This document shows, in pieces, positions 5,888-34,785 of a DNA stretch of 34,785 nt. The translations under genes and the position numbers were made by a program. Origin of the DNA: a virus; IMG/VR virus record IMGVR_UViG_3300033142_002178, positions 1 through 34,785 of that record; one strand, 5' to 3'. The notes below the pieces were generated by a model that had not been told where the DNA came from, did not search any database, and was given only the letters and a program-made list of their open reading frames with translations. Position 1 is the stretch's first letter. Each line of letters begins with the position of its first letter.

Positions 5888-8329
5888 ATGGCATATTATG
5901 TCACCACCCATGACTTCACCCACGGCCAGATTGACAAGGTTTTAAAAGCCCGGTCAGATTTGGCGCTTTATAATAAGGGTGCATTAGAGATTAAGAACAT
6001 GGTTGTTAGGGCGGGCGGGGCTGCTAAGTCGAGATTTGGCACGCAGTGGTTGGAGGAGGGTGTAGATTATGGTATTCCTGCGCCTCCCAATCCTGTGGGA
6101 TTCCCCAATCCTGATATTTCAGTGACGGCTAATGGAAACAAACCCGGCTATCAAATGTTCGATTTTGTCCCTAGTGAGAGTGTCCAGTTGTTAGTTATTT
6201 TAGGTGTAGAGAGTGGATTTCCCCTGGACCCAGGACTTTCTAACCGATTTGTATATTATGTAGCTAAAAATACTACTGGCACCGGTCCTGCCACTGGCAC
6301 ATTTAATTTGGTGGAAGCTCCGGGTGCTCCTCCTGACTGGATAATTGATAATAACCAGGTAGCTAGAATTAAATACCGCCCAGCTCAAAACCAAACCGAT
6401 TTTATATTAGTAACTGGCACCGAAGCTCCATTGAGATTAAATTGGACGGGCGCTACTGTCACGGCGACTAGCTTGGATTTCACTACCGCCGATGGAAGCA
6501 ATCCTCCTCAGCATGATTTTGCTCAGGGGAGGTATAATGGAGTTACGTTTACGTTGAGTATTGGTGGTGGCGGGGTAAGTGCTACAGATATAACACCAGC
6601 GGGGACTCCTGCTGCTAACCTTCCTATTTTAACCCTAGGCCCGCCAATTCCCGCGCCAGTCCTGGGTCAGTGGAATGGGTTTTATTATGACGGGGTTAAC
6701 GCTGACAATCATTACGTAAACGGAGTTTTTGAAGCCATAGGCCCTATCGCTACGGTAGGTTCTCCTATTGGGATAGCCATTATTGTTTCGCTTACCAGCA
6801 ATACTATAGCCAGAGTACGAATTGTTAGTCCTTTCGACCCTTCGCTAGCTATTCCACCAGCCACTGCCGGAGCCATAGGTACACAGGTCGTCTTAACTGA
6901 GCCGGCGTTTAGCCAGTCTAACGGAGCCACTTTCCCGGGACGTGGCCAGCCCCGCACCGTCAGTTTTTATGAATCGCGCTTAATATTAGCTGGTTCTGAC
7001 TCTTTACCGCAGTCATTATTCATGTCACAGATTGGCCAATTCGATAACTTCGCCACGGGCACTGGACTGGCTGATGAAGGTATAGCTTACACAATCGCAG
7101 CCGGAAGCGAAGACCAAATTATAAACATGGTATCTGGGCGCTCATTACAAGTCTTCACCACCACCAATGAGTTCAGTGCTCCGGTGTGGTCTGAAGCAGG
7201 ACTAACCCCAGAAACCGTAACCATCCGCCGACAGACCAGTATTGGCTCATCTAACTGTATACCTGCCGTGTTAGATAATATGACTGTCTATAGTAAGCGC
7301 GGTGGTCGCTCATTAATGGGATTTGAATCACTCAACTCAGGCGGGAATACGTACAATTCTCAAGATGTTAGTGCCCTGAGCTCTGAGATAGTGAACGAGC
7401 CCATCCACATGACGAGCTATGTTGAGAATAACGCTTATGACGCTAATGTCCTGTTTGTGATTAATGAGGGTATTGATGACGTTCAGCAGCGACAGATGAT
7501 AGTGTATGAATCCTTAAGAGAGCAAAATGTGGCTGCATGGACCACTACCTCTACGCGAGGTGAATGGGAAAATGTGGAATCAGTGGGTGATGAAGTATTT
7601 TTTATAACCAAACGCGGCACCGGAGCCACTCCAGGTAACTATGAATTTGAACGGATGAACTCAAATATTGTGATGGATGCTGGGATTGAGTGTGTGGCGA
7701 CTAATGCGGGACCGCAAGCGACGATTCTTGTACCGGACCCTGGTGGTGGTGCTCCTATCCCATTAATTATGCCGACTATGTATTATGAGCAGACGATTGA
7801 CATTGTATCGTATGTGGGAAGTGACCCCAGACATCCTCAGGGGCTATGGATTGGTGAAGCTCAAGTCAGTAATACTGGCGTAGTTACTATTATCATCCCT
7901 CAAACCCCCGACCCGCCGGTTGGTCCTGGGCCTATTTCACCAGCTAACCCTTACACTTATTGGATTGGGTTAAACTTCGAGCAAAAAATAGAAACAATGC
8001 CGATTGATATCAAGACGCAAATGGGCTCGATGCTATATTTCAAGAAAAAAATATTCAAAGTATTTGTGCAATATTATGAGTCTTATCCGTTTTTTGTGAA
8101 TGGTCAAGAATCTCCACTACGGAGACTAGGGCCACCTTATACTCCCCCAGCGATTCAGTTAAATATGCCTGAGTTGCCATATTCGGGGATATGGATGACA
8201 CCCACAATGCAGAAATTAAATTTACCCAACAATTATTATGTGGGGTTTGTTCGTGAAGCTACGGTGTTAATTGAAACCACCAGACCTTTGCCATTAACTA
8301 TAACGGGCCTTAGTATGGGCGTAGGATAA
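5888..8329 (+). CDS. Tail tubular protein B (T7 gp12-like nozzle)
   Basis: An 813-aa protein (T7 gp12 is 794 aa). It forms the hexameric tail nozzle. The N-terminal pattern is diagnostic for the family: a HDFTHGQID segment, SDLALYNKGALEIKNM and GGAAKSRFGTQW. The central part has the PRTVSFYESRLILAGS motif and the FTTTNEFSAPVW strand typical of nozzle proteins. RBS AGGAA, overlapping the end of the previous gene. The gene lies in the conserved A-B-internal protein order. Confidence 0.9.
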   Translation: MAYYVTTHDFTHGQIDKVLKARSDLALYNKGALEIKNMVVRAGGAAKSRFGTQWLEEGVDYGIPAPPNPVGFPNPDISVTANGNKPGYQMFDFVPSESVQLLVILGVESGFPLDPGLSNRFVYYVAKNTTGTGPATGTFNLVEAPGAPPDWIIDNNQVARIKYRPAQNQTDFILVTGTEAPLRLNWTGATVTATSLDFTTADGSNPPQHDFAQGRYNGVTFTLSIGGGGVSATDITPAGTPAANLPILTLGPPIPAPVLGQWNGFYYDGVNADNHYVNGVFEAIGPIATVGSPIGIAIIVSLTSNTIARVRIVSPFDPSLAIPPATAGAIGTQVVLTEPAFSQSNGATFPGRGQPRTVSFYESRLILAGSDSLPQSLFMSQIGQFDNFATGTGLADEGIAYTIAAGSEDQIINMVSGRSLQVFTTTNEFSAPVWSEAGLTPETVTIRRQTSIGSSNCIPAVLDNMTVYSKRGGRSLMGFESLNSGGNTYNSQDVSALSSEIVNEPIHMTSYVENNAYDANVLFVINEGIDDVQQRQMIVYESLREQNVAAWTTTSTRGEWENVESVGDEVFFITKRGTGATPGNYEFERMNSNIVMDAGIECVATNAGPQATILVPDPGGGAPIPLIMPTMYYEQTIDIVSYVGSDPRHPQGLWIGEAQVSNTGVVTIIIPQTPDPPVGPGPISPANPYTYWIGLNFEQKIETMPIDIKTQMGSMLYFKKKIFKVFVQYYESYPFFVNGQESPLRRLGPPYTPPAIQLNMPELPYSGIWMTPTMQKLNLPNNYYVGFVREATVLIETTRPLPLTITGLSMGVG

Positions 8330-8338
8330 GGAGGAGAT

Positions 8339-8917
8339 ATGGGAGAAGCTGCCATCTTAGTGGCCGTAGTTGCTGGAACTGCTGGGGAAATGTATGAGCA
8401 AGGACAAGCGACCAATGCCAAGGAAGCTGCACTAGAACTCCAGCGAAAACAGCAAGAAACATTAGCGGCCCAAGAACAAATCCAGCGCGATGATATGCTG
8501 CGTAGGGTTCAGGGTGAGCAACTAGCCCAGGCTGCGGCGGAGGGTATGGCTCCATCATCTGGTACGTTGGGTTCATTGCAGTTAGGTTCATATAATAAAT
8601 TTGCGGAATCAACTCAGACAGCGAAATCTAATTTGGCGATGAAGGAAATGGCTATAGACCAGCAAAAAAGCCAATTAGAAAGCCAGTACTGGGCGCAAAT
8701 GTTTGGGGATGTGTTTGGTGCTGCGGAGGGAATGGCTCAGGTTGGGGTTGGTGCAGGTGGTGGCGGTGGTGGAGGCGGTGGAGGAGATTGGATGGATGCC
8801 GGCTTTGGTAAAGAAAGTCCCGGACTAATGGCACCTACTACTAAGAAACCCAATTTAGTGGATACGTATACAGACACCGACCCGTTTGCAAATTGGCTTC
8901 ATGAGAATGGTGAATAA
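8339..8917 (+). CDS. Internal virion protein, gp14-like ejection protein
   Basis: A 192-aa protein (T7 gp14 is 196 aa) in the gp14 position. The N-terminus is a hydrophobic Ala/Val segment (residues 3-15), followed by a long Gln/Glu/Ala-rich helix (about 22-60), a pattern typical of podovirus internal protein B. A run of ten Gly follows GAG at about residues 140-150. Such proteins are ejected into the outer membrane during infection. Strong RBS AAGGAGGAG. Assignment rests mainly on position, length and composition. Confidence 0.7.
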   Translation: MGEAAILVAVVAGTAGEMYEQGQATNAKEAALELQRKQQETLAAQEQIQRDDMLRRVQGEQLAQAAAEGMAPSSGTLGSLQLGSYNKFAESTQTAKSNLAMKEMAIDQQKSQLESQYWAQMFGDVFGAAEGMAQVGVGAGGGGGGGGGGDWMDAGFGKESPGLMAPTTKKPNLVDTYTDTDPFANWLHENGE

Positions 8918-8919
8918 AT

Positions 8920-11265
8920 ATGGTAACGGCAAAATATACAGAAAGCACACCAGTCCAGCCAGTTGATTTCACAGCGGCAGCCGGTGCAGGTGCTGAAGCT
9001 TGGGCTAAAACTGCTCAAGAAGTAAGCAGTGACGCTTTTAAAAGATTAACTAATCTGAAGATGGAAGAGGCTGTAACTCAGGGAAATATCGAAGGGGCCA
9101 AAGGCACTGAAGCTCAACCCATGTCGGGTGGCACGGCGTATGCCACACGATTTAATCAAGCGCTAGAACAATCAGCTCAGATAGATGTTCACACCAAGAC
9201 TCTCGACCACCTCTCGCAATTGAATCAGGAGTATACCGCCAAGCCCGCGACCATCGCTAATGCTCAAGAATATGCGGCAAAAGGTGAGGCGTGGGTAGCT
9301 GGGGTCATACAACACGCTCCAGCGTCAATGCAAGGGATGGTGCAGAACACCCTTAAACCATTATGGCAGTCCTTTAAAGGGCAATACGGTGATTATACTT
9401 ATAAGCAACAACTCCAAAGCAACGAATTACAACAACGCCTCCAAATGCAACAAGTTATTAATAATGGCGGACTTGCTATTACCAAAGGTGGGTTGGTTGA
9501 CCAAACGCTCACCCAAAAACATTATGAAAAGAGCCAGGAACTCATCCTTTCCAAACCAGCCGTATCTAATGCCCAAAAATTAACTGCTCTAGAGCACCTA
9601 GCCGACACTAATGCTAACGCTTTTAATGATTACTTTTTTCAGACCACTAAGAACCAACTCCAAAACGCCGTAAATAGTAAGAATCAACCACAAATACAAG
9701 CAGCTCAGGACACTCTTAATAAATATGCGTCAGATTCTGGGGAGATTGCCCGTACCTTAAAACGTACTTATCCGAAGATACTAGGCAACTATCCTATGGT
9801 GGAAAAAATGGTCAGGCTCAAAGGCACTGAATACCGGCACGGTGTACAGGCTCAAGCACGACAACTCAAGCATGAATTTGATACTGCCCTGGAAAAACAA
9901 AAGCAAGGATACAAGGTTTCAGGAGAGGATATAGTAAACCTGTCTAGCGCGGTTGATCTTGTCCCCACTGGTAAGCAGTCCCTAGAAAAGATTAAAGATT
10001 GGAACAGCTTCCTAGCCGACGTTGATGATGCCGCAAACCAGGTTGGTGGATATCAATCCCGATTACAAAAAGAAACCAACCCCGACAAAATTAAATATCT
10101 AACGCACTTACAGCACCTGCAAGATACGAACTCCGCAGCGTATTTGAATCGAATCAATCGGGACCACGACTTGGCTCAGACGATGCCACTAGCGGCCAAT
10201 TATCTCCCCAACCAACAACGCAACATTAAAACCGCGCTCAACGACCCGCAATTAGGGAATAATTTGCTAAATGATAAATATAACTCTATCGACAAACACG
10301 GCATATTAAATGCTATAGACCAGAGGAAGCTACAAGGCCACGCGTTAGGGATTTCCTCTGTGCCATTTTTTACTAATCGGCAGGCTAAAAATACAGTCGC
10401 TCACATCCAGTCAATGCCTACTGCGGTAGCTCGTGGCGAGGCTTGGAACAAACTCCGGACCCTCGGGATTGCACCCACAGATGTAGTGAGTCAAGTCAAG
10501 GATGCTGACCCAGCAGACATGGCAGACGCTGCATTCTCTAATAACCAAATAAGCGATATAGTAAAAAATTATAAAGTCATCCATGATGCAGCCCGCGATA
10601 AGTACAAAACTGATGTAGATACGAACGCAGCAAATCTACTGCAAAACCCCACGATGATATCTCTACAACAGGCCGTAAAGCCCAAACTATTCAAGACCAT
10701 CCAACAAGCAGTTCAAGGGATTGGCGATAGTTTGACCCTGGGCAATACGGTGCGGGGGCTTGATATGGACTTTACCCATGTGTTTGGGGGTTATCATGAA
10801 AGTACCCTTTGGGAGAGTGACCGAAACCAGATTATTGATTTTGTGTTAAAGGACATGGGTGTTAATAGATCGGAGACTCAACCGCTGTTAATTCCCCAAT
10901 CCGTCAAAGGGGTTGCAGTCAATGCATTTAAAGTAAGTCGGGGCGCAAATGCCCAAGCTAAAATCGCATATAAAGTGGCATGGACCCCATCTGGTGACGG
11001 TCCGGATTGGCATCACTATCTTGCAACTTACGGGTTTGGAGAGGCCCCTCGCGCAAAAGTTCTAGCCCAGTATAAAGAGCTATTTACACAAATTGGTGAA
11101 CAAGCCAATGCAGATAATCGTGCTGCCTACTTTATTAACTATTCAGCCCATCAATATGCAGCGGTTAGTGGCAGTGGGGTTCTTATGTATTATAAAAACG
11201 CTGACGGTAGCCGAGGTAACCGCATGGTTGGCGATATAACTGCATTGGAAGAAGGACACCTGTAA
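8920..11265 (+). CDS. Internal virion protein, gp15-like
   Basis: A 781-aa protein (T7 gp15 is 746 aa) in the gp15 position. It is mostly alpha-helical and Gln/Asn/Ala-rich, with repeated helical segments such as NELQQRLQMQQ and no membrane segment or signal. T7-like gp15 assembles the periplasmic part of the ejectosome. The C-terminus overlaps the next start by 1 nt (TAATG). It is weakly conserved in sequence, so the call rests on context, size and composition. Confidence 0.7.
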   Translation: MVTAKYTESTPVQPVDFTAAAGAGAEAWAKTAQEVSSDAFKRLTNLKMEEAVTQGNIEGAKGTEAQPMSGGTAYATRFNQALEQSAQIDVHTKTLDHLSQLNQEYTAKPATIANAQEYAAKGEAWVAGVIQHAPASMQGMVQNTLKPLWQSFKGQYGDYTYKQQLQSNELQQRLQMQQVINNGGLAITKGGLVDQTLTQKHYEKSQELILSKPAVSNAQKLTALEHLADTNANAFNDYFFQTTKNQLQNAVNSKNQPQIQAAQDTLNKYASDSGEIARTLKRTYPKILGNYPMVEKMVRLKGTEYRHGVQAQARQLKHEFDTALEKQKQGYKVSGEDIVNLSSAVDLVPTGKQSLEKIKDWNSFLADVDDAANQVGGYQSRLQKETNPDKIKYLTHLQHLQDTNSAAYLNRINRDHDLAQTMPLAANYLPNQQRNIKTALNDPQLGNNLLNDKYNSIDKHGILNAIDQRKLQGHALGISSVPFFTNRQAKNTVAHIQSMPTAVARGEAWNKLRTLGIAPTDVVSQVKDADPADMADAAFSNNQISDIVKNYKVIHDAARDKYKTDVDTNAANLLQNPTMISLQQAVKPKLFKTIQQAVQGIGDSLTLGNTVRGLDMDFTHVFGGYHESTLWESDRNQIIDFVLKDMGVNRSETQPLLIPQSVKGVAVNAFKVSRGANAQAKIAYKVAWTPSGDGPDWHHYLATYGFGEAPRAKVLAQYKELFTQIGEQANADNRAAYFINYSAHQYAAVSGSGVLMYYKNADGSRGNRMVGDITALEEGHL

Positions 11266-13811
11266 TGGCAGACACTTTAATAAGCGATTTTGGCACTCCT
11301 GAAGAGGATATACGCACGGGCACAGGCCCCGAGAGTGTTGAGGAATTACGCCAAGAAGGTAGAGATGAGGAAGATGCTTATAATAAACAGCAAAAAGAAC
11401 TAGCCGAAGAATCTACCAGAATCCCAGAATCCACCGAGCCCTCAACTATTGCTCAGGTTGCTAAGTTTGGGGTTGGTACTGTTGGTAAGTTTTTTACTGA
11501 TGAACTGAGCCCTTGGCGGATTGGTGCAAATTTCATAGCGCAAAACTTATACACGCGCACGAACTTAGTACCTTATATGCAAGATTACCCGAGCCTGGAG
11601 CGGATGGGTCCTGAAGAGTTGAAAGCAAAACTTGCCAGCGACACCTATACCATGGGAGCTACATTATTTGGCAGGCATGGACTCACAGTAGGAGAACAAA
11701 TTACCCCACAACATATAAACGCGGTCAATCAAGGCGTTAGTACTATCGCTTCGTCTACTCTGGGGGTTGGTAATCCGGTAGATAAAAAATTCCAAGAAGC
11801 CCACGAATGGTTTCAGAAGGTCCAAGGCACCAATATCTTAGCCAACACTGTGGCTGATTTGACAAGTGATATAGTGAGATTTGCGCCGGGGATGAAAGCG
11901 GCGGAGAAATCATTTGATTATCTATTTAGTAGTGCTGGTGGGGCTAAAGTTCTGGAGTCCTTATCCAAAATCGGTGTAGGAGGTGCGGTTGCTGGGAAAA
12001 TAACCGAGTCTTTTTTAAATGCACCACCGGTAGCTAAGGCAGCTATGGCTAAAGTCCTCAGTAAAATCCCATTCATATCTGAGAACGGCGCAACCAGATT
12101 AACCACGGCGTTAGTCAGGGGCGCTATTGGTGGCTTAGGGTGGGAGCTTAAGAAAAAATCCCTCGAGAATCTATTTCACGCATCGACAGGAACCCCCTAT
12201 GAAAACCCAGTTAATCAGTTAGCGGATGTGGGTAAAAGTATGTTATGGGGGGCGGGTTTAGATGGCGGTTTGAATTTGGTGGGGATGGCAGCTAGTCGGG
12301 TTGGGAAAGGTATTGTATCTGAAACCAAGCGCTTACGGCTCGCATATAAGGAGGAAATGAAAGCCGAGTTAGAAGCGGAAAAACAACCACATTATGAGAA
12401 GCTGGTTAAGAAATTAGAAGCAATCAAAAAGAGTAAAATAGCGGTAAAAGGGGAGGAGAAAGCTGGAAAGATAGCTAAGGTAGAGGCGGGCCATAAACTT
12501 CCTCACTATCAAACCTTGGTAGATAGGTTAGCTGCAATAAAACAATCCAAACTTGCGGCTAGCGCGGCCCATGAGGCTAAAAAAATTAGCGATACCCATG
12601 AGGCATTAAAATCCTATTATGCGGATGAAGGAAAGCGATTAAAGGATATAGGAACAGAAATTGAACTAGACCGCGTGTCGCGGGGTAAAGAATTATTCAA
12701 CATAAGTTTAGCTACCGACCAAGACCTGGCAAATATGGTTAACATGCATACGGAGGCGGCAGTAGGCACCGATGTAAATAATGTGTTGGGTTATTTGCAA
12801 TCCATGATAAGCAAAAATTTAAAAAATACCTCATTAGAAGACATCTCCGGAATGAGGCGTGCTCGGGACGAACTGCATGAGAAATCCATTACTGACCGCG
12901 TTGAGGTTGATGAGCTATTTAAAGATATAAACAAGTTCACAGATAAACAAATCCAAAATTTACCCTCGTCCTATTTAGCTGCTTTATATAAACAATTGCG
13001 TGAACTAGAATTTGAACCCACCCGCCACGCATATTTAAATGGCAAAAGATTAACTAAACTTATTACAGACACCTACCCCGGGATGAACATCTGGAAAACT
13101 CAAGTGCAAAATTTTATGGCTGGTGAGCGTAACTTGCGGGGGGAGCCATTACAACGACAACTGGCTATTAGAGAGCATACCTCAGATATAGAAAGTGAAA
13201 TCCAATATACGGAAAAATATCTTAAGAAAAATATCTTAAAAGCCAAAAATCGCGCCAAACTTCAAAATAGGCTGAAGAATTTAAAAGCAGAAATAGCTAG
13301 CCATACCGTAGGTAGTAATTTAACTAGCCACGAATTACTTAAGGACTCCATCACTGACTTGCACTTATTAAGTGATGAAATGGACCGCAACCATCAGCTC
13401 AAACAAGCGTTAGATACTATTTTTACTGATGATTTGCATAAGTACACGGTGGCAATGGAAAATAATTCCCGCGCCTATTATTTAAATGAAAATCCTGCCG
13501 CTGAAGCTAGCAAAACTGCCGAAGAAGCGTTAGATGAGATAACGGAAGAGAAAGAGAAAAAGGAAAAGGGCGAAAGTGTTGGTACTGAAAAATCGGCATC
13601 TGAAGAATTAGGCGAAATTACTGGCACTTCTATGAAGCCGGATGAAGAGATTGAGCAACTTGGTCCAGAGCACACGGACGTACTCACGGAAGCGCAACAA
13701 CAAAGTTATCAGAAAAATATGGACTATATTATTAAGACTGAACGCAATCACAAAGGCATCCACAAATGGTTAAGTAAAGTCACGGCTTGTTTGACTGGCG
13801 GAGGTAAATAA
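11265..13811 (+). CDS. Large internal virion protein, gp16-like part 1
   Basis: An 848-aa protein in the T7 gp16 position. The N-terminus is acidic and probably flexible (residues 1-50). Residues 180-340 include Gly/Ala-rich amphipathic segments that could enter membranes (for example KIGVGGAVAGKI). Residues 360-460 form a charged coiled-coil-like region with an internal duplication: PHYEKLVKKLEAIKKSK (about 374) and PHYQTLVDRLAAIKQSK (about 412). The end is Glu/Lys-rich, finishing CLTGGGK. No lytic transglycosylase motif is evident. It is probably ejected with its neighbours. Confidence 0.65.
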   Translation: MADTLISDFGTPEEDIRTGTGPESVEELRQEGRDEEDAYNKQQKELAEESTRIPESTEPSTIAQVAKFGVGTVGKFFTDELSPWRIGANFIAQNLYTRTNLVPYMQDYPSLERMGPEELKAKLASDTYTMGATLFGRHGLTVGEQITPQHINAVNQGVSTIASSTLGVGNPVDKKFQEAHEWFQKVQGTNILANTVADLTSDIVRFAPGMKAAEKSFDYLFSSAGGAKVLESLSKIGVGGAVAGKITESFLNAPPVAKAAMAKVLSKIPFISENGATRLTTALVRGAIGGLGWELKKKSLENLFHASTGTPYENPVNQLADVGKSMLWGAGLDGGLNLVGMAASRVGKGIVSETKRLRLAYKEEMKAELEAEKQPHYEKLVKKLEAIKKSKIAVKGEEKAGKIAKVEAGHKLPHYQTLVDRLAAIKQSKLAASAAHEAKKISDTHEALKSYYADEGKRLKDIGTEIELDRVSRGKELFNISLATDQDLANMVNMHTEAAVGTDVNNVLGYLQSMISKNLKNTSLEDISGMRRARDELHEKSITDRVEVDELFKDINKFTDKQIQNLPSSYLAALYKQLRELEFEPTRHAYLNGKRLTKLITDTYPGMNIWKTQVQNFMAGERNLRGEPLQRQLAIREHTSDIESEIQYTEKYLKKNILKAKNRAKLQNRLKNLKAEIASHTVGSNLTSHELLKDSITDLHLLSDEMDRNHQLKQALDTIFTDDLHKYTVAMENNSRAYYLNENPAAEASKTAEEALDEITEEKEKKEKGESVGTEKSASEELGEITGTSMKPDEEIEQLGPEHTDVLTEAQQQSYQKNMDYIIKTERNHKGIHKWLSKVTACLTGGGK

Positions 13812-21337: not shown

Positions 21338-22069
21338 ATGAAGGAAGAATACCAGATTAAAAAATGCAGTCAATCTTTTTACTATAAGCTTGACTTGAGG
21401 TTTTCATTGTACAGGGAATATCCTCTCTCTTATCCCGCGCTCTCTAGGTTACGCCCTACGATTTCGCTGGCGGCGTATGACCTTTTTATAGCCATGTGTC
21501 ACTACCAGAGGCGGTACTACTACGACGACTTTAGAGTAGCTGAAAATTACTGGCGCAAAACATGTTGCTTTACTCAGAGGGCCTTTTTAAAGGCCCGCGC
21601 CGAATTAATAAGGCATCAGCTCGTCTGCAAGCACAACCCCTCCCGTTACACGCCCCCTACTTATTCTGGGCTTCGGGGGGAGATTGGGGAAGATGAGCTC
21701 TCTCTCTCCATTCCATCTCCTGTCGAGCTATATTTAAGCGAGCTTTTAAAGGCTAAGCTCATCAACCGAGCCACCCGCTATCTATATTTTCATTTGTTCA
21801 CCGAGGCTCAGACTGCAGATTTCCCCGAAAGTATTTTTTTACACAGCGCGGACATTCGTCAATCCCTAGGGCATCCTTCTCCAACATTGTTGCGGCTAAT
21901 CGCCAAATTAAAAGCCCTAGGTTTGGTTGAAGTAAACGCTGCCAAAACTTGCCACTCTCCCTCAGAATTTTTTATTTTAGTTCCTCAGGTGGAATATCCG
22001 ATGCGTAAGAAGTTCGCGTGGGGTCTAGAGCAAGGGGGCAGCTTGACAATAAAATCTCAATCGTTATGA
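21338..22069 (+). CDS. Rep-like winged-helix protein 1
   Basis: A 243-aa, basic, aromatic-rich protein, paralogue of the 22172 gene. The first conserved block is VAENYWRKTCCFT-x(2)-AFLKARAEL (about 66-90). The second (about 170-200) is a probable winged helix: helix-turn-helix ADIRQSLGHPSPTLLRL, recognition helix, then the strand pair GLVEVNAAK. Two DNA-binding regions in tandem resemble plasmid and phage replication initiators, but no family is firmly recognised, so a transcription regulator is possible. Own promoter and leader; RBS AGGAG in a hairpin loop. The end of the gene contains the promoter of the paralogue. Confidence 0.7.
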   Translation: MKEEYQIKKCSQSFYYKLDLRFSLYREYPLSYPALSRLRPTISLAAYDLFIAMCHYQRRYYYDDFRVAENYWRKTCCFTQRAFLKARAELIRHQLVCKHNPSRYTPPTYSGLRGEIGEDELSLSIPSPVELYLSELLKAKLINRATRYLYFHLFTEAQTADFPESIFLHSADIRQSLGHPSPTLLRLIAKLKALGLVEVNAAKTCHSPSEFFILVPQVEYPMRKKFAWGLEQGGSLTIKSQSL

Positions 22070-22171: not shown

Positions 22172-22924
22172 ATGCGGCAAGAATACCAGGTTAAAAATTG
22201 TAGTCAAGCGTTTGAGTTAAAGAAAGAATTAAAAAATTCCCCTTACAAATATTACTCTCTAACTTATCCAGGTTTCCGGGACTTATATCCTAAGATTTCG
22301 ATACATGCTTACGACCTGTATATGGCGATGGTGAACTATCCCACCAAAACCAAACGGGGCTATTTCAAGGTAGCTGAAAATTACTGGCGCAAAACATGTT
22401 GCTTTACCCATCAGGCCTTTTTGAAGGCCCGCGCCGAATTACAAGGACACGAGGCCATTAAAACTCGCCAATATGGATTGAATAAGCCCCAGTATCAGCT
22501 CAGCACTCCTGTCCAGGAGGTCAAATCCTATCTGATGATTGCGTGGCCCATTGTCCATTACTTGGGTGAACTCTTAGAGCATAAACTTCTAAACCGAGCC
22601 ACGGGCTACCTGTATTTTCATTTGTATAGTCTGGCTTTTCAAGCCGATTTTCCCGAAAGTATTTTTTTACGCACTAGTGACATGCGTCAATCTTTAGGGC
22701 ATCCATCTTCGACATTGTGCGCCCTAATCGCCAAATTAAAAGCCCTAGGTTTGGTTGAAGTAAACGCTGCCAAAACTTGCCACTCTCCCTCAGAATTTTT
22801 TATTGCCGTCCCTGATGTGAAATACCCACCTCGTGAAAATCGGCGCGAAATCCAACTTGCTACCGACGAGCAAGCACGTGCGGCTGTAGCTAAATGCAAC
22901 GCCCGCCTTGCCGCGCTCTCCTAA
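22172..22924 (+). CDS. Rep-like winged-helix protein 2
   Basis: A 250-aa paralogue of the previous gene. It has the same two blocks (VAENYWRKTCCFT near 67 and the winged helix around 168-200) and a longer, Ala/Arg-rich C-terminal tail. Two stretches are identical in DNA to gene 1: 38 bp (22370-22407) and 81 bp (22724-22804). The middle third is quite different. This mix suggests gene conversion of the DNA-binding parts while the central domain diverged. A DnaA box and iterons follow within 100 bp, which supports a role in replication initiation. Not proven. Confidence 0.7.
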   Translation: MRQEYQVKNCSQAFELKKELKNSPYKYYSLTYPGFRDLYPKISIHAYDLYMAMVNYPTKTKRGYFKVAENYWRKTCCFTHQAFLKARAELQGHEAIKTRQYGLNKPQYQLSTPVQEVKSYLMIAWPIVHYLGELLEHKLLNRATGYLYFHLYSLAFQADFPESIFLRTSDMRQSLGHPSSTLCALIAKLKALGLVEVNAAKTCHSPSEFFIAVPDVKYPPRENRREIQLATDEQARAAVAKCNARLAALS

Positions 22925-23097: not shown

Positions 23098-23121
23098 AAA
23101 AAAAAAGGGGCCAAGGCCCCG
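23098..23121 (-). terminator. Terminator after radical SAM gene
   Basis: On the minus strand, GGGGCC-TT-GGCCCC is followed by nine T. It ends the leftward peptide-modification operon and would also partly stop rightward transcripts from the Rep genes. Confidence 0.85.
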
Positions 23122-23186: not shown

Positions 23187-24287
23187 TTAATTACGGTAAG
23201 GAGTAAATCCCATCTCCGTCATTTTCTTTAGTCCGTAAGTTGTTTTCAGGTAATTGGCAGGACATGCCAAGGCCCATAGATTGAAATTTTTAATCTTGCC
23301 ATCACCAAAGCCCTCATACCACATACTTGCTAATTCAGGGTTCGTTACATCTGCTGTGCCATCTTCTTTCAATTGTGCAAATGTGGCATCAAGGTGAACT
23401 GTGCATTTACCAATCCTACCATCGCGCCTAAGAACCCAGTTGTTAAGTCGAGCTGCATAACACCAATATGGATTTGAGTCCTTGCGCTGATGTTGAGCAA
23501 TACGGTTATCTCCAACCAAGTTCTTTAATCGGGCAATATGATGTCCTGGCGTATCTTCTTTTTTCATGATTAGTTTTTTGAATTTAGGGTCAACTCCGCC
23601 CATATCGTGAATCTCCTCAAATTCCACTTGAAAGCGACGATCGTTGCGGAGGAAGGTTTCATATACCTCATGCACAAAACTATCCATTTGAGCCCCAATA
23701 TTGCCCTGGTGGATATGAATACGCATGGTGATGATGAATTCATGGTCAGAATGTTTAGCGTCCAATAAATTACCCCAAATTTTATCGAAGGTGCCTTTGC
23801 GCTTTGGGTCTTGGATGAGCATTTGTTTTTTAGAGAGTTTGACCACCCGGGTTTGGTCATGAAATTTCCGAGGTCCATCAAATGAGATTTTAAAAGCAAT
23901 CACTCCTGAAGCCCGCATACGGTCCAGCATGCGTTTGTTGAGAGCGGTGCCATTGGTTACCATGTCCCCTTCTACATTAATGCCTAAATCTAGCGCTGAC
24001 AGGCTTATATCTTCAATTTGACTCGGGGCCATGAGCGGTTCACCACCGAACCACGATAGCGATGCTTTTTGAAGCCCATTTTCTGATAAGTTTTTAATCC
24101 AGCTCTGTGTGCCTTTCACCATTTTCGCGCTCATAGGTGGAAATAGTTTGTCGCGTTTGAATCTGTGTTCTTCGTAACAGTACCCGCAATCTAAGTTGCA
24201 GTTTTCAGTCGGTAAGATAGCCACTCGTAGCCATTTTGATGTGATTGCCCTTTCTAACTGCAGGGGGCTCATAAATCGTTGTTCCAT
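23187..24287 (-). CDS. Radical SAM/SPASM-like peptide maturase
   Basis: A 366-aa enzyme. The S-adenosylmethionine cluster motif is C-x3-C-x2-C with Cys30, Cys34 and Cys37 (ENCNLDCGYCYEE). It is followed by LSWFGGEP (77-83), the GGE motif that binds the SAM amino group, and by FKISFDGP (132-139). Three further Cys at 276, 295 (GRIGKC) and 342 could hold an auxiliary cluster of SPASM or twitch type. This architecture is shared by sulfatase-maturing enzymes and RiPP maturases that crosslink side chains. No sulfatase is present, while a small Cys-rich exported peptide is encoded 57 nt upstream. RBS AAGGAAAAAC before ATG 24287. A peptide-crosslinking maturase is therefore the best reading. Confidence 0.85.
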   Translation of the reverse strand: MEQRFMSPLQLERAITSKWLRVAILPTENCNLDCGYCYEEHRFKRDKLFPPMSAKMVKGTQSWIKNLSENGLQKASLSWFGGEPLMAPSQIEDISLSALDLGINVEGDMVTNGTALNKRMLDRMRASGVIAFKISFDGPRKFHDQTRVVKLSKKQMLIQDPKRKGTFDKIWGNLLDAKHSDHEFIITMRIHIHQGNIGAQMDSFVHEVYETFLRNDRRFQVEFEEIHDMGGVDPKFKKLIMKKEDTPGHHIARLKNLVGDNRIAQHQRKDSNPYWCYAARLNNWVLRRDGRIGKCTVHLDATFAQLKEDGTADVTNPELASMWYEGFGDGKIKNFNLWALACPANYLKTTYGLKKMTEMGFTPYRN

Positions 24288-24304
24288 AGTTTTTCCTTGG
24301 TATT

Positions 24305-24324
24305 AAAAAAGGGGCCGAAGCCCC
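24305..24324 (-). terminator. Terminator between precursor and maturase genes
   Basis: On the minus strand, GGGGC-TTCG-GCCCC is followed by six T, 20 nt after the precursor stop. A partial terminator here would make much precursor mRNA and little maturase mRNA, as is common in RiPP operons. Confidence 0.85.
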
Positions 24325-24344
24325 TTGGTTGAAATTAGTTGAGA

Positions 24345-24575
24345 TTAAGCGTCACAGTAGCAATTAATGCCGCAGACTGTCTGGAGCGGGTCATTGATGA
24401 AGTTCATATCTGTATAATTTACATCAAGACTCTGGACTTGCTCTGATAGCACCTGGCTTGCTTTGATTTGTAATGTATTATCTAACGCGCCAAGGTTGGT
24501 TGCTTGAGCTGAACCCGTTAAAGCGACAGCGCCGGCTGTTAAAATTGTTCCTAATATTGCTTTTGAATTTTTCAT
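24345..24575 (-). CDS. Putative exported RiPP precursor peptide
   Basis: A 76-aa peptide. Residues 1-25 form a Sec-type signal: Lys at 2 and 5, hydrophobic core ILGTILTAGAVALTG, then SAQA as a cleavage site. The mature part is acidic with Cys68, Cys72 and Cys74 at the very end (VCGINCYCDA). It holds three short motifs of aromatic-X-Asp/Asn type: YTD (54-56), FIN (59-61) and YCD (73-75). That is the pattern modified in three-residue cyclophane peptides (triceptides). Cys-based crosslinks (sactipeptide or ranthipeptide type) are an alternative. RBS AAGGAAAAATT. The gene sits directly upstream of the maturase with a terminator between. Product function unknown. Confidence 0.75.
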   Translation of the reverse strand: MKNSKAILGTILTAGAVALTGSAQATNLGALDNTLQIKASQVLSEQVQSLDVNYTDMNFINDPLQTVCGINCYCDA

Positions 24576-24626
24576 AATTTTTCCTTATTAATTTCGGCAA
24601 AATTGCCATATCCTACAAATGTAGAA

Positions 24627-25208
24627 TTAAGATTTGACCCCGCCTTCAACGACCGAATCAGGTGATTGGTTAAGTACACACTCCGACTTACAGATAATGC
24701 GCCCATGCACAGTCGTCCCATCTAATGTGATGTGAGCGCGATGACCATTTCTGGGGTCGGCTAATGTAATGTTTGTATTAATTTCACTATGAACTAGCGT
24801 GACTGTATCTGCTGAAATATCCAGATTATTCGCCCGTGTATTTGTTAGCATCACAGTGCCTGTCATCCAGCCATGCCCCAGATGCGAATCTTCAACACGC
24901 ACGCTACCTAATATGCCAAATTTATCGATAGCGCTGCCGTTAATCTTGACGCTACCCAAGTTATTTAAATCTTTGATACGTGAATTAGCTATTACTAGCC
25001 CGCCCGTGTGGGTGTAGTGGCCCAGAGTTTGATTATTAATTTCTGAATGGCCCATAGACCCGGTTAAGAATGTATGAATCGCTTGAAAATCGTGCTCTAA
25101 CAATTTCACGGGCTCTAAAGCATGCGCGTTTGCCTGCCACGTAGCCGCTCCTATTACCGCAATTGCTGTGATGTTATATAAGCTGCTTAATTTATCTACT
25201 AATGCCAT
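24627..25208 (-). CDS. Secreted beta-helix-like protein in the RiPP operon
   Basis: A 193-aa protein. I start at ATG 25208 because AGGAA lies 8 nt upstream. It begins with a signal peptide (about residues 1-30, ending ANAHA). The mature part has units of about 16 residues of the form GSV-K/R-I/V-x(2)-S-x-I/L-x(3-6), repeated four or five times (GLVIANSRI, GSVKINGSAI, GSVRVEDSHL, GTVMLTNTRA, DTVTLVHSEI). This is the pattern of a right-handed beta-helix. It ends with a Cys pair (CKSEC). It may bind, display or protect against the modified peptide in the periplasm, or be a second substrate. This is inference. Confidence 0.7.
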   Translation of the reverse strand: MALVDKLSSLYNITAIAVIGAATWQANAHALEPVKLLEHDFQAIHTFLTGSMGHSEINNQTLGHYTHTGGLVIANSRIKDLNNLGSVKINGSAIDKFGILGSVRVEDSHLGHGWMTGTVMLTNTRANNLDISADTVTLVHSEINTNITLADPRNGHRAHITLDGTTVHGRIICKSECVLNQSPDSVVEGGVKS

Positions 25209-25303
25209 TGTATAATTCCTATGTGAAATGTGATTTTGATTTTGCCGTAATTGAGCGGATATAAAAACCGGGTGCATTCTTTAATCCTGTCTATTTTTTT
25301 CAT
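25199..25303 (-). CDS. Small coupled protein, 34 aa
   Basis: ATG 25303 overlaps the stop of the 86-aa gene (ATGA) and has a good GAGGAAA site 8 nt upstream. The TAG stop overlaps the start of the beta-helix gene by 10 nt. The peptide (MKKIDRIKECTRFLYPLNYG and 14 more residues) is basic and aromatic, with one Cys. It may be a real small protein, or mainly a device that couples translation of its neighbours. Confidence 0.55.
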   Translation of the reverse strand: MKKIDRIKECTRFLYPLNYGKIKITFHIGIIQWH

Positions 25304-33978: not shown

Positions 33979-34785
33979 GCAGACAGTAGGTACGAGTGCA
34001 GAAGATACCTCGTTAGTATCTGAGCCCGGTGTAGGGTTGGTTGATTTAGTAGAGACTGACGCAGACCACGTGGGTGGCGGAAATAATAATGTGCGTGGTA
34101 AAGAAGGTTCGATTGAAGATTGGTTTTGGGTGAATAATGACGATTCGCAAATTCCAGGAAAAGGCGAGCCACCAGTTTGGTATAATCAGAAGACTTTCAA
34201 ATCAGTAGAAGAACAGGCCAAAGCCCATCCGGAACTGAGGAAATTGTACAATGATAAGCTCAAGGGATTATCTGGAGCTCCAGAGGGTGACTATAGCTAT
34301 GACTTCCCAGAGGACTTTGTGGAAAAGGGTTATGAATACGATACTAAAAATCCTTATTACCAAGACTTCCTTGATTTGGCCCGGAACAACGGCGTATCAC
34401 AGGAGCTGGTAGAGCAAATGACCGACCTGGTTGTTGAGTCGCAGAATGTGTCACGTGAAACACAAACCGCCCGAGCTGAAGAGGCTATGAATGAGGAATT
34501 TAATCATTTAACAAATGGCGATAGGCATGGATTTGAACGCGCAGTTAAAACCGCAGCTAACAATCCTAATGTAGATAAAGAGCAATTGAACATATTGTTA
34601 GAGAATTTGACTACTGCCGACTCTATTAAAGCTTTTACAGCCCTCCTCCATGAGCCAGATTATGCACGGGTTCCTGGGCCAGAGGTTCACGCGGTAAGAG
34701 ATGGTGCCGCTAGACAAAACAACTTACGTGAAAGACTAGCAAAATTACAGACGATGCGGGGACAGGCGAAAGAGGATTTCAAGCG
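33971..34785 (+). CDS. Scaffolding protein, N-terminal part (continues at window start)
   Basis: The 5' part of a 289-aa scaffold (T7 gp9 is 307 aa). The N-terminus is acidic and probably unstructured, followed by WFWVNNDDSQIPGKGEPPVW and a YNQKTFKSVEEQAKAHPEL motif that is common in podovirus scaffold proteins. The body is a charged, helix-rich rod. It guides capsid protein assembly and is then released. The gene runs off the edge and is completed by bases 2-169 after the repeat is collapsed. It is coupled to the previous gene by overlap. Confidence 0.87.
   Translation, partial: MDEQTVGTSAEDTSLVSEPGVGLVDLVETDADHVGGGNNNVRGKEGSIEDWFWVNNDDSQIPGKGEPPVWYNQKTFKSVEEQAKAHPELRKLYNDKLKGLSGAPEGDYSYDFPEDFVEKGYEYDTKNPYYQDFLDLARNNGVSQELVEQMTDLVVESQNVSRETQTARAEEAMNEEFNHLTNGDRHGFERAVKTAANNPNVDKEQLNILLENLTTADSIKAFTALLHEPDYARVPGPEVHAVRDGAARQNNLRERLAKLQTMRGQAKEDFK
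34672..34785. repeat. Terminal direct repeat, right copy
   Basis: Exact copy of bases 1-114. See the left copy for interpretation. Confidence 0.95.

Follow-up and report, generated by a model that had tools for sequence, protein, structure and literature searches.

Radical SAM enzymes which modify Cys-rich precursor peptides include the SCIFF/ranthipeptide maturases CteB and PapB and the TIGR04463 maturases. The phage locus presented here resembles these systems in combining a putative peptide-modifying radical SAM enzyme with a Cys-rich precursor, but differs in that its enzyme is shorter, has three auxiliary Cys in a twitch-like arrangement and scores far below every curated cut-off, and in that its precursor begins with a signal peptide. 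Anaerobic sulfatase-maturating enzymes (anSME), which act on exported proteins before export and have a SPASM domain with seven Cys, are also radical SAM proteins and are among the best fold matches of the enzyme described here, but their substrate is a large enzyme. With respect to the precursor, the likeness is to the MNIO-modified bufferins and oxazolins, which are also Cys-rich and carry a Sec signal in place of a classical leader, a feature termed highly unusual for RiPP precursors (PMC12452194). The enzyme of the present locus is a radical SAM protein and not an MNIO, and the locus does not classify as a bufferin system.

Sublancin 168, from prophage SPbeta, is a RiPP from a phage genome (PMC6391423). 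The candidate RiPP described here is likewise encoded by a phage genome, while sublancin 168 differs in being a glycocin of a temperate phage with a Gram-positive host and a known immunity protein. The sublancin 168 system also lacks a radical SAM enzyme. To our knowledge, hardly any phage-encoded RiPPs are known apart from bacteriocins of prophages, of which sublancin is an example, and open-access titles and abstracts yielded no account of a radical SAM RiPP carried by a phage. If the reading given below is correct, a radical SAM-modified, Sec-exported peptide which is swapped as a unit between phages would connect natural-product chemistry with phage competition, would give a new enzyme family its minimal pair of precursor and enzyme, and would pose the question of how a modified peptide passes through the Sec channel.

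The cassette and its phage carriers

The window analyzed here is the whole stretch of 34,785 nucleotides of IMG/VR virus record IMGVR_UViG_3300033142_002178. An exact 114-base repeat was present at both ends (1-114 and 34672-34785), indicating that the genome is probably complete and closed on itself. Genes for capsid, tail, head-tail connector and terminase were recognised, and the connector was at most 30% identical to its nearest named relatives, which include Methylophilales phage MEP301, Pelagibacter phages and Vibrio phages. Among the window genes scanned there was no conspicuous integrase, and a weak resolvase-like protein was observed near the cassette. The phage is small and of aquatic type. 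The features of the cassette, by window position, are as follows.

23107..23120, minus strand: terminator-like hairpin with T-run 3' of the enzyme gene, at the cassette end (terminator scan)
23187..24287, minus strand: putative radical SAM peptide maturase, 366 aa, with CX3CX2C at residues 30-37 and auxiliary twitch-like Cys 276, 295 and 342
24309..24326, minus strand: terminator-like hairpin and T-run between the precursor and enzyme genes; hairpin also in L002, L003 and L085
24345..24575, minus strand: precursor peptide, 76 aa, predicted to be exported (ORF, conservation, purifying selection)
24354..24374, minus strand: Cys core CGINCYC, precursor residues 68-74, its first two Cys invariant in four phages
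24501..24575, minus strand: Sec-type signal peptide, precursor residues 1-25, with AQA cleavage site (by inspection; kept in four phages)
24627..25208, minus strand: third cassette gene, predicted exported protein of 193 aa when counted from the conserved start MALVDKLSS (the longest ORF starts at 25277)

The original prediction, made from the window alone, was of a phage-borne cassette in which a signal-bearing 76-aa peptide with three C-terminal Cys stands directly before a radical SAM enzyme. Both ORFs were found as described on the minus strand of this virus record, and the peptide-enzyme pair was present in three more phages (L002, L003 and L085). It had also been made to depend on the peptide being kept beside the enzyme in relatives, as proved to be the case in all three. 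Three features go beyond that prediction: a third gene at 24627-25208, a terminator-like hairpin located between the precursor and the enzyme, and transfer of the cassette from phage to phage. Gene order was constant in the four phages, with the exported protein first, then the precursor, of which L003 has two tandem copies, and last the enzyme, and it is from these four only that the three-gene form is known. Searches for further phages carrying the exported protein, or close kin of the L002 and L085 enzymes, found none, and the more distant phages G009 and G010, which were reached via their exonuclease and whose records may be fragments, showed no enzyme of the family. The recurrence of the pair in three related phages and the dN/dS of 0.15 between the tandem precursors of L003 mark the pairing of peptide and enzyme as more than chance.

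With respect to expression, the GC-rich hairpin between precursor and enzyme was present in 4/4 phages and was followed by a T-run in all but L085. It is likely a partial terminator, which would leave the precursor in excess of the enzyme. Because the terminator scan returned 5 terminator-like sites versus 3.0 (sd 2.0) in shuffles, weight was placed on the recurrence of the hairpin in relatives and not on the scan itself. Two small hairpins were also observed upstream of the precursor in both the window (24576-24626) and L003 (7412-7468), one of them with the stem-loop GGCAATTTTGCC identical in both phages; translation control is a possible function.

Some further observations were made on these genomes. 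Record G001 (L085) also has exact terminal repeats, again of 114 bases; in both the window and L085 these may be genuine or may stem from overlap in the assembly. The window carries two adjacent paralogous winged-helix genes on the plus strand (21338-22069 and 22172-22924; MarR_2-like, below cut-off), possibly encoding replication or regulatory proteins, where L085 has a single copy. A phage-encoded cold shock protein (phrog_729) lies at 587-802 on the plus strand, and its L002 counterpart is 71% identical.

The precursor and its candidate maturase

The precursor reads MKNSKAILGTILTAGAVALTGSAQA / TNLG...NYTDMNFINDPLQTVCGINCYCDA, where the slash marks the AQA site. By inspection the signal consists of a basic n-region and a hydrophobic core followed by this site, and the three Cys lie at positions 68, 72 and 74 within the C-terminus CGINCYCDA. 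The precursors of related phages have diverged to 23-49% identity with the first two core Cys still invariant, and the third is retained in L003. In L003 two tandem duplicate precursor genes (7469-7699 and 7717-7944) were observed, each ending CGVNCSC. Nei-Gojobori dN/dS was 0.15 when the L003 copies were compared with each other and 0.19 when the window was compared with L003a, while in the comparison of the window with L003b synonymous sites were saturated. These precursors are under purifying selection.

As is characteristic of RiPP systems, a small precursor gene kept beside the maturase and under selection was found in four phages (dN/dS 0.15-0.19). A second RiPP characteristic, a leader motif shared with other precursors, was not found in the window precursor; the motif of the bacterial precursors was absent by shuffle test (p 0.55) and weak in L002 (p 0.048), and the control leaders in this test were chosen and trimmed around the motif, which makes their own p-values flattering. 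A shared leader motif is one route of enzyme recognition and is no requirement for RiPPs.

It had further been proposed that three aromatic-X-Asp/Asn motifs in the peptide mark it as a triceptide. YTD, FIN and YCD are indeed present in the window peptide, but in L003, L002 and L085 they are missing or interrupted, and models of cyclophane-forming enzymes scored far below their cut-offs against the window enzyme (GrrM 46, FxsB 39 and YhhB 55 bits versus 310, 370 and 445). This chemistry was not upheld, and we consider a triceptide or cyclophane RiPP very unlikely.

The enzyme contains six Cys in total, 30/34/37 in CNLDCGYC together with 276 (CYA), 295 (KCT) and 342 (CP), and all six were invariant in an alignment of nine sequences. 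It belongs to the radical SAM superfamily, as the Pfam model Radical_SAM (PF04055) matched with 47.9 bits against a cut-off of 29.5 and Cys 30/34/37 are invariant. A domain of SPASM/twitch type had been expected, and while the three further Cys were confirmed, no match to the SPASM Pfam domain was found. Because a SPASM domain has about seven auxiliary Cys and this enzyme only three, the C-terminal domain was classed from its sequence as twitch-like and the SPASM assignment was rejected. The best NCBIfam model was TIGR04463 (rSAM_vs_C_rich), which gave 97.5 bits where the cut-off is 525 and so does not place the enzyme in that family; five relatives scored 103-159 bits with the same model, likewise below 525, and none of the NCBIfam models listed passed its curated cut-off for the window enzyme or these relatives. 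The enzyme is a member of an unnamed, rare twitch-type family which no named family fits.

The predicted structure (mean pLDDT 71.6, pTM 0.76) and the sequence gave CteB, a SCIFF thioether maturase, anSME, SkfB, ChlB and TigE among the nearest solved structures, CteB being the nearest by both sequence and fold; all of these are taken, in part by title, to modify proteins or peptides. Together with the Cys-rich peptides which adjoin members of the family, this supports the earlier view of a peptide-type maturase. The fold matches also included viperin and MoaA, with which the enzyme has the radical SAM core in common. An antiviral viperin-like nucleotide enzyme with an unrelated peptide beside it would account for a PADLOC pVip match within the radical SAM core and for the 51 bits given by the NCBIfam viperin model, but the cut-off of that model is 180, the match is confined to the core, and both the twitch-like C-terminal domain with its three invariant Cys and the peptide neighbours throughout the family speak against such an enzyme, which we regard as extremely improbable.

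Cassette exchange and a proposed role at the host envelope

Trees of the portal, capsid and tail proteins each grouped the window with L085 and L002 with L003 (support 100/100). In contrast, trees of the exported protein and of the enzyme N-terminus grouped the window with L003 and L002 with L085 (support 99.7-99.8/100). As L003 is a fragment which breaks inside the enzyme gene, its enzyme comparison is based on 99 residues; the full enzyme tree agreed with the cassette grouping (support 100/99 and 93/90). Between the window and L085, terminase was 94% identical and the genes flanking the cassette 65-71%, while the enzyme was 36% and the exported protein 31% identical, and the window precursor gave no tblastn match to L085. 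Because backbone and cassette trees conflict with near 100% support and the identities differ, the cassette has moved between phages as a unit. Such swapping among related phages suggests use in a contest at the infected-cell surface.

The third gene of this unit encodes a protein with the conserved N-terminus MxLVDKLSSLYN...HA, which was predicted to form a beta-solenoid (mean pLDDT 77.6, residues 1-36 poor) and has Cys173/Cys177 near its C-terminus, invariant in the phage members. The window protein had no Pfam match, a PDB fold search gave no hit with E <0.001 and only weak matches to beta-helix and pentapeptide-repeat proteins, and homologues were found only in the window, L002, L003 and L085. 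It may be asked whether this protein is a second or even the main substrate of the enzyme, with the small peptide as carrier or co-substrate. The two are co-conserved and co-transferred, the invariant Cys pair lies in a CKxxC-like stretch resembling the CGxxC of the precursor, and exported RiPP precursors in the literature include beta-helix proteins with inward Cys (PMC12452194). This arrangement is nonetheless unlikely in our view, as the Cys pair could form a disulphide and only Cys-rich peptides, with no solenoid gene, were seen beside the bacterial, prophage and T4-like phage relatives of the enzyme.

On the directly supported elements (the genes and their conservation, a peptide under selection, the family to which the enzyme belongs, and exchange as a unit) we favour, with moderate confidence, the reading that the cassette is an exchangeable phage system for a Sec-exported, Cys-modified RiPP whose site of action is the infected host's envelope. 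The peptide is a well supported, though unproven, candidate for the substrate of the enzyme. We infer that in the cytoplasm the twitch-type radical SAM enzyme would modify the precursor at its C-terminal CGxxC(xC) region, that the Sec system would export the modified peptide, and that signal peptidase would cut off residues 1-25. The modification is placed before export since the enzyme has no signal; anaerobic sulfatases provide one precedent for this order of events. Bufferins provide another (PMC12452194).

A Cys-based link is favoured because two core Cys are invariant and because of the kinship of the enzyme, and a thioether-type crosslink would be the simplest and most likely form. As no acceptor residue is conserved, the thioether is deduced from enzyme kinship only, and the conserved Cys and CteB-like fold are consistent with ranthipeptide/sactipeptide thioethers. 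The cassette would thus work like a Cys-modifying radical SAM RiPP system, and we do not claim membership in a named one. The cassette showed no discernible RiPP recognition domain, protease or dedicated exporter, nor did cassette searches, including Pfam and PADLOC, identify an immunity or function gene.

The mature peptide of ~51 aa would then reside in the periplasm or envelope and work with the co-encoded beta-solenoid protein, its most likely role being to change the infected host's envelope or to protect it from rival phages or bacteria. A contest at the envelope was preferred because the divergence, the exchange and the exported product all fit it. The main alternative is metal binding, in which the mature peptide would be a periplasmic RiPP binding, for example, copper, a radical SAM-made analogue of the bufferins which helps the infected host. 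The bufferin plan of Sec signal, Cys-rich sequence and modification before export is matched (PMC12452194), and Cys-x3-Cys-x-Cys could bind soft metals. However, the cassette and neighbour genes scanned included no MNIO enzyme or metal-related gene, and a cassette so divergent and exchanged between phages is nearer to an arms race than to housekeeping; we hold metal binding to be rather improbable. Returning to the envelope contest, a broader version can be offered tentatively and as a possibility only, namely that exchangeable phage RiPP cassettes, with a peptide modified before translocation and a beta-solenoid partner, serve in the envelope as a barrier or weapon specific to the phage, by which superinfection would be excluded or competitors killed, and which is diversified by swapping.

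The enzyme family in bacteria and other phages

The enzyme family was rare, being present in 2/398 sampled Pseudomonadota genomes, one of which was the search centre itself, and in 3/298 genomes of one order. Family enzymes adjoin Cys-rich peptides in Streptomyces, Nocardioides, Paucibacter, Solimicrobium, Caulobacter and Sinorhizobium, and those of Paucibacter and Caulobacter are also accompanied by C39 peptidase ABC exporters. The bacterial and prophage Cys-rich peptides have in common a leader pattern resembling IxVDxxGRVVI. Two bacterial loci, L134 and L135, have signal-peptide-like precursors with Cys-rich tails (GVNCHTC and CKGNGQCCC, respectively), and the exported precursor design is therefore not unique to phages. 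In both of these loci a precursor with the leader motif lies directly beside the family enzyme (L134, 8950-9201 and 7856-8878, minus strand; L135, 945-1373 and 1456-2511, plus strand).

Other phage-type carriers were L086, a prophage-like record with the enzyme beside terminase, and L088, a tail-gene fragment. A further record, L089 (IMGVR_UViG_3300045974_000166, 192,097 b), is T4-like by its tail sheath, tube, portal and capsid. Its region 7968-13706 encodes a family radical SAM enzyme, a 72-aa Cys-rich peptide, a C39 peptidase ABC exporter and, after these, a 730-aa protein which has a signal and a CBM9-like domain; the region has the appearance of a full RiPP-type cluster belonging to this enzyme family. 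In L092 (2079-3424) the family enzyme has as neighbours a phage integrase and a precursor with the C-terminus TNCSCNV; the enzyme frame is in pieces and is probably decaying.
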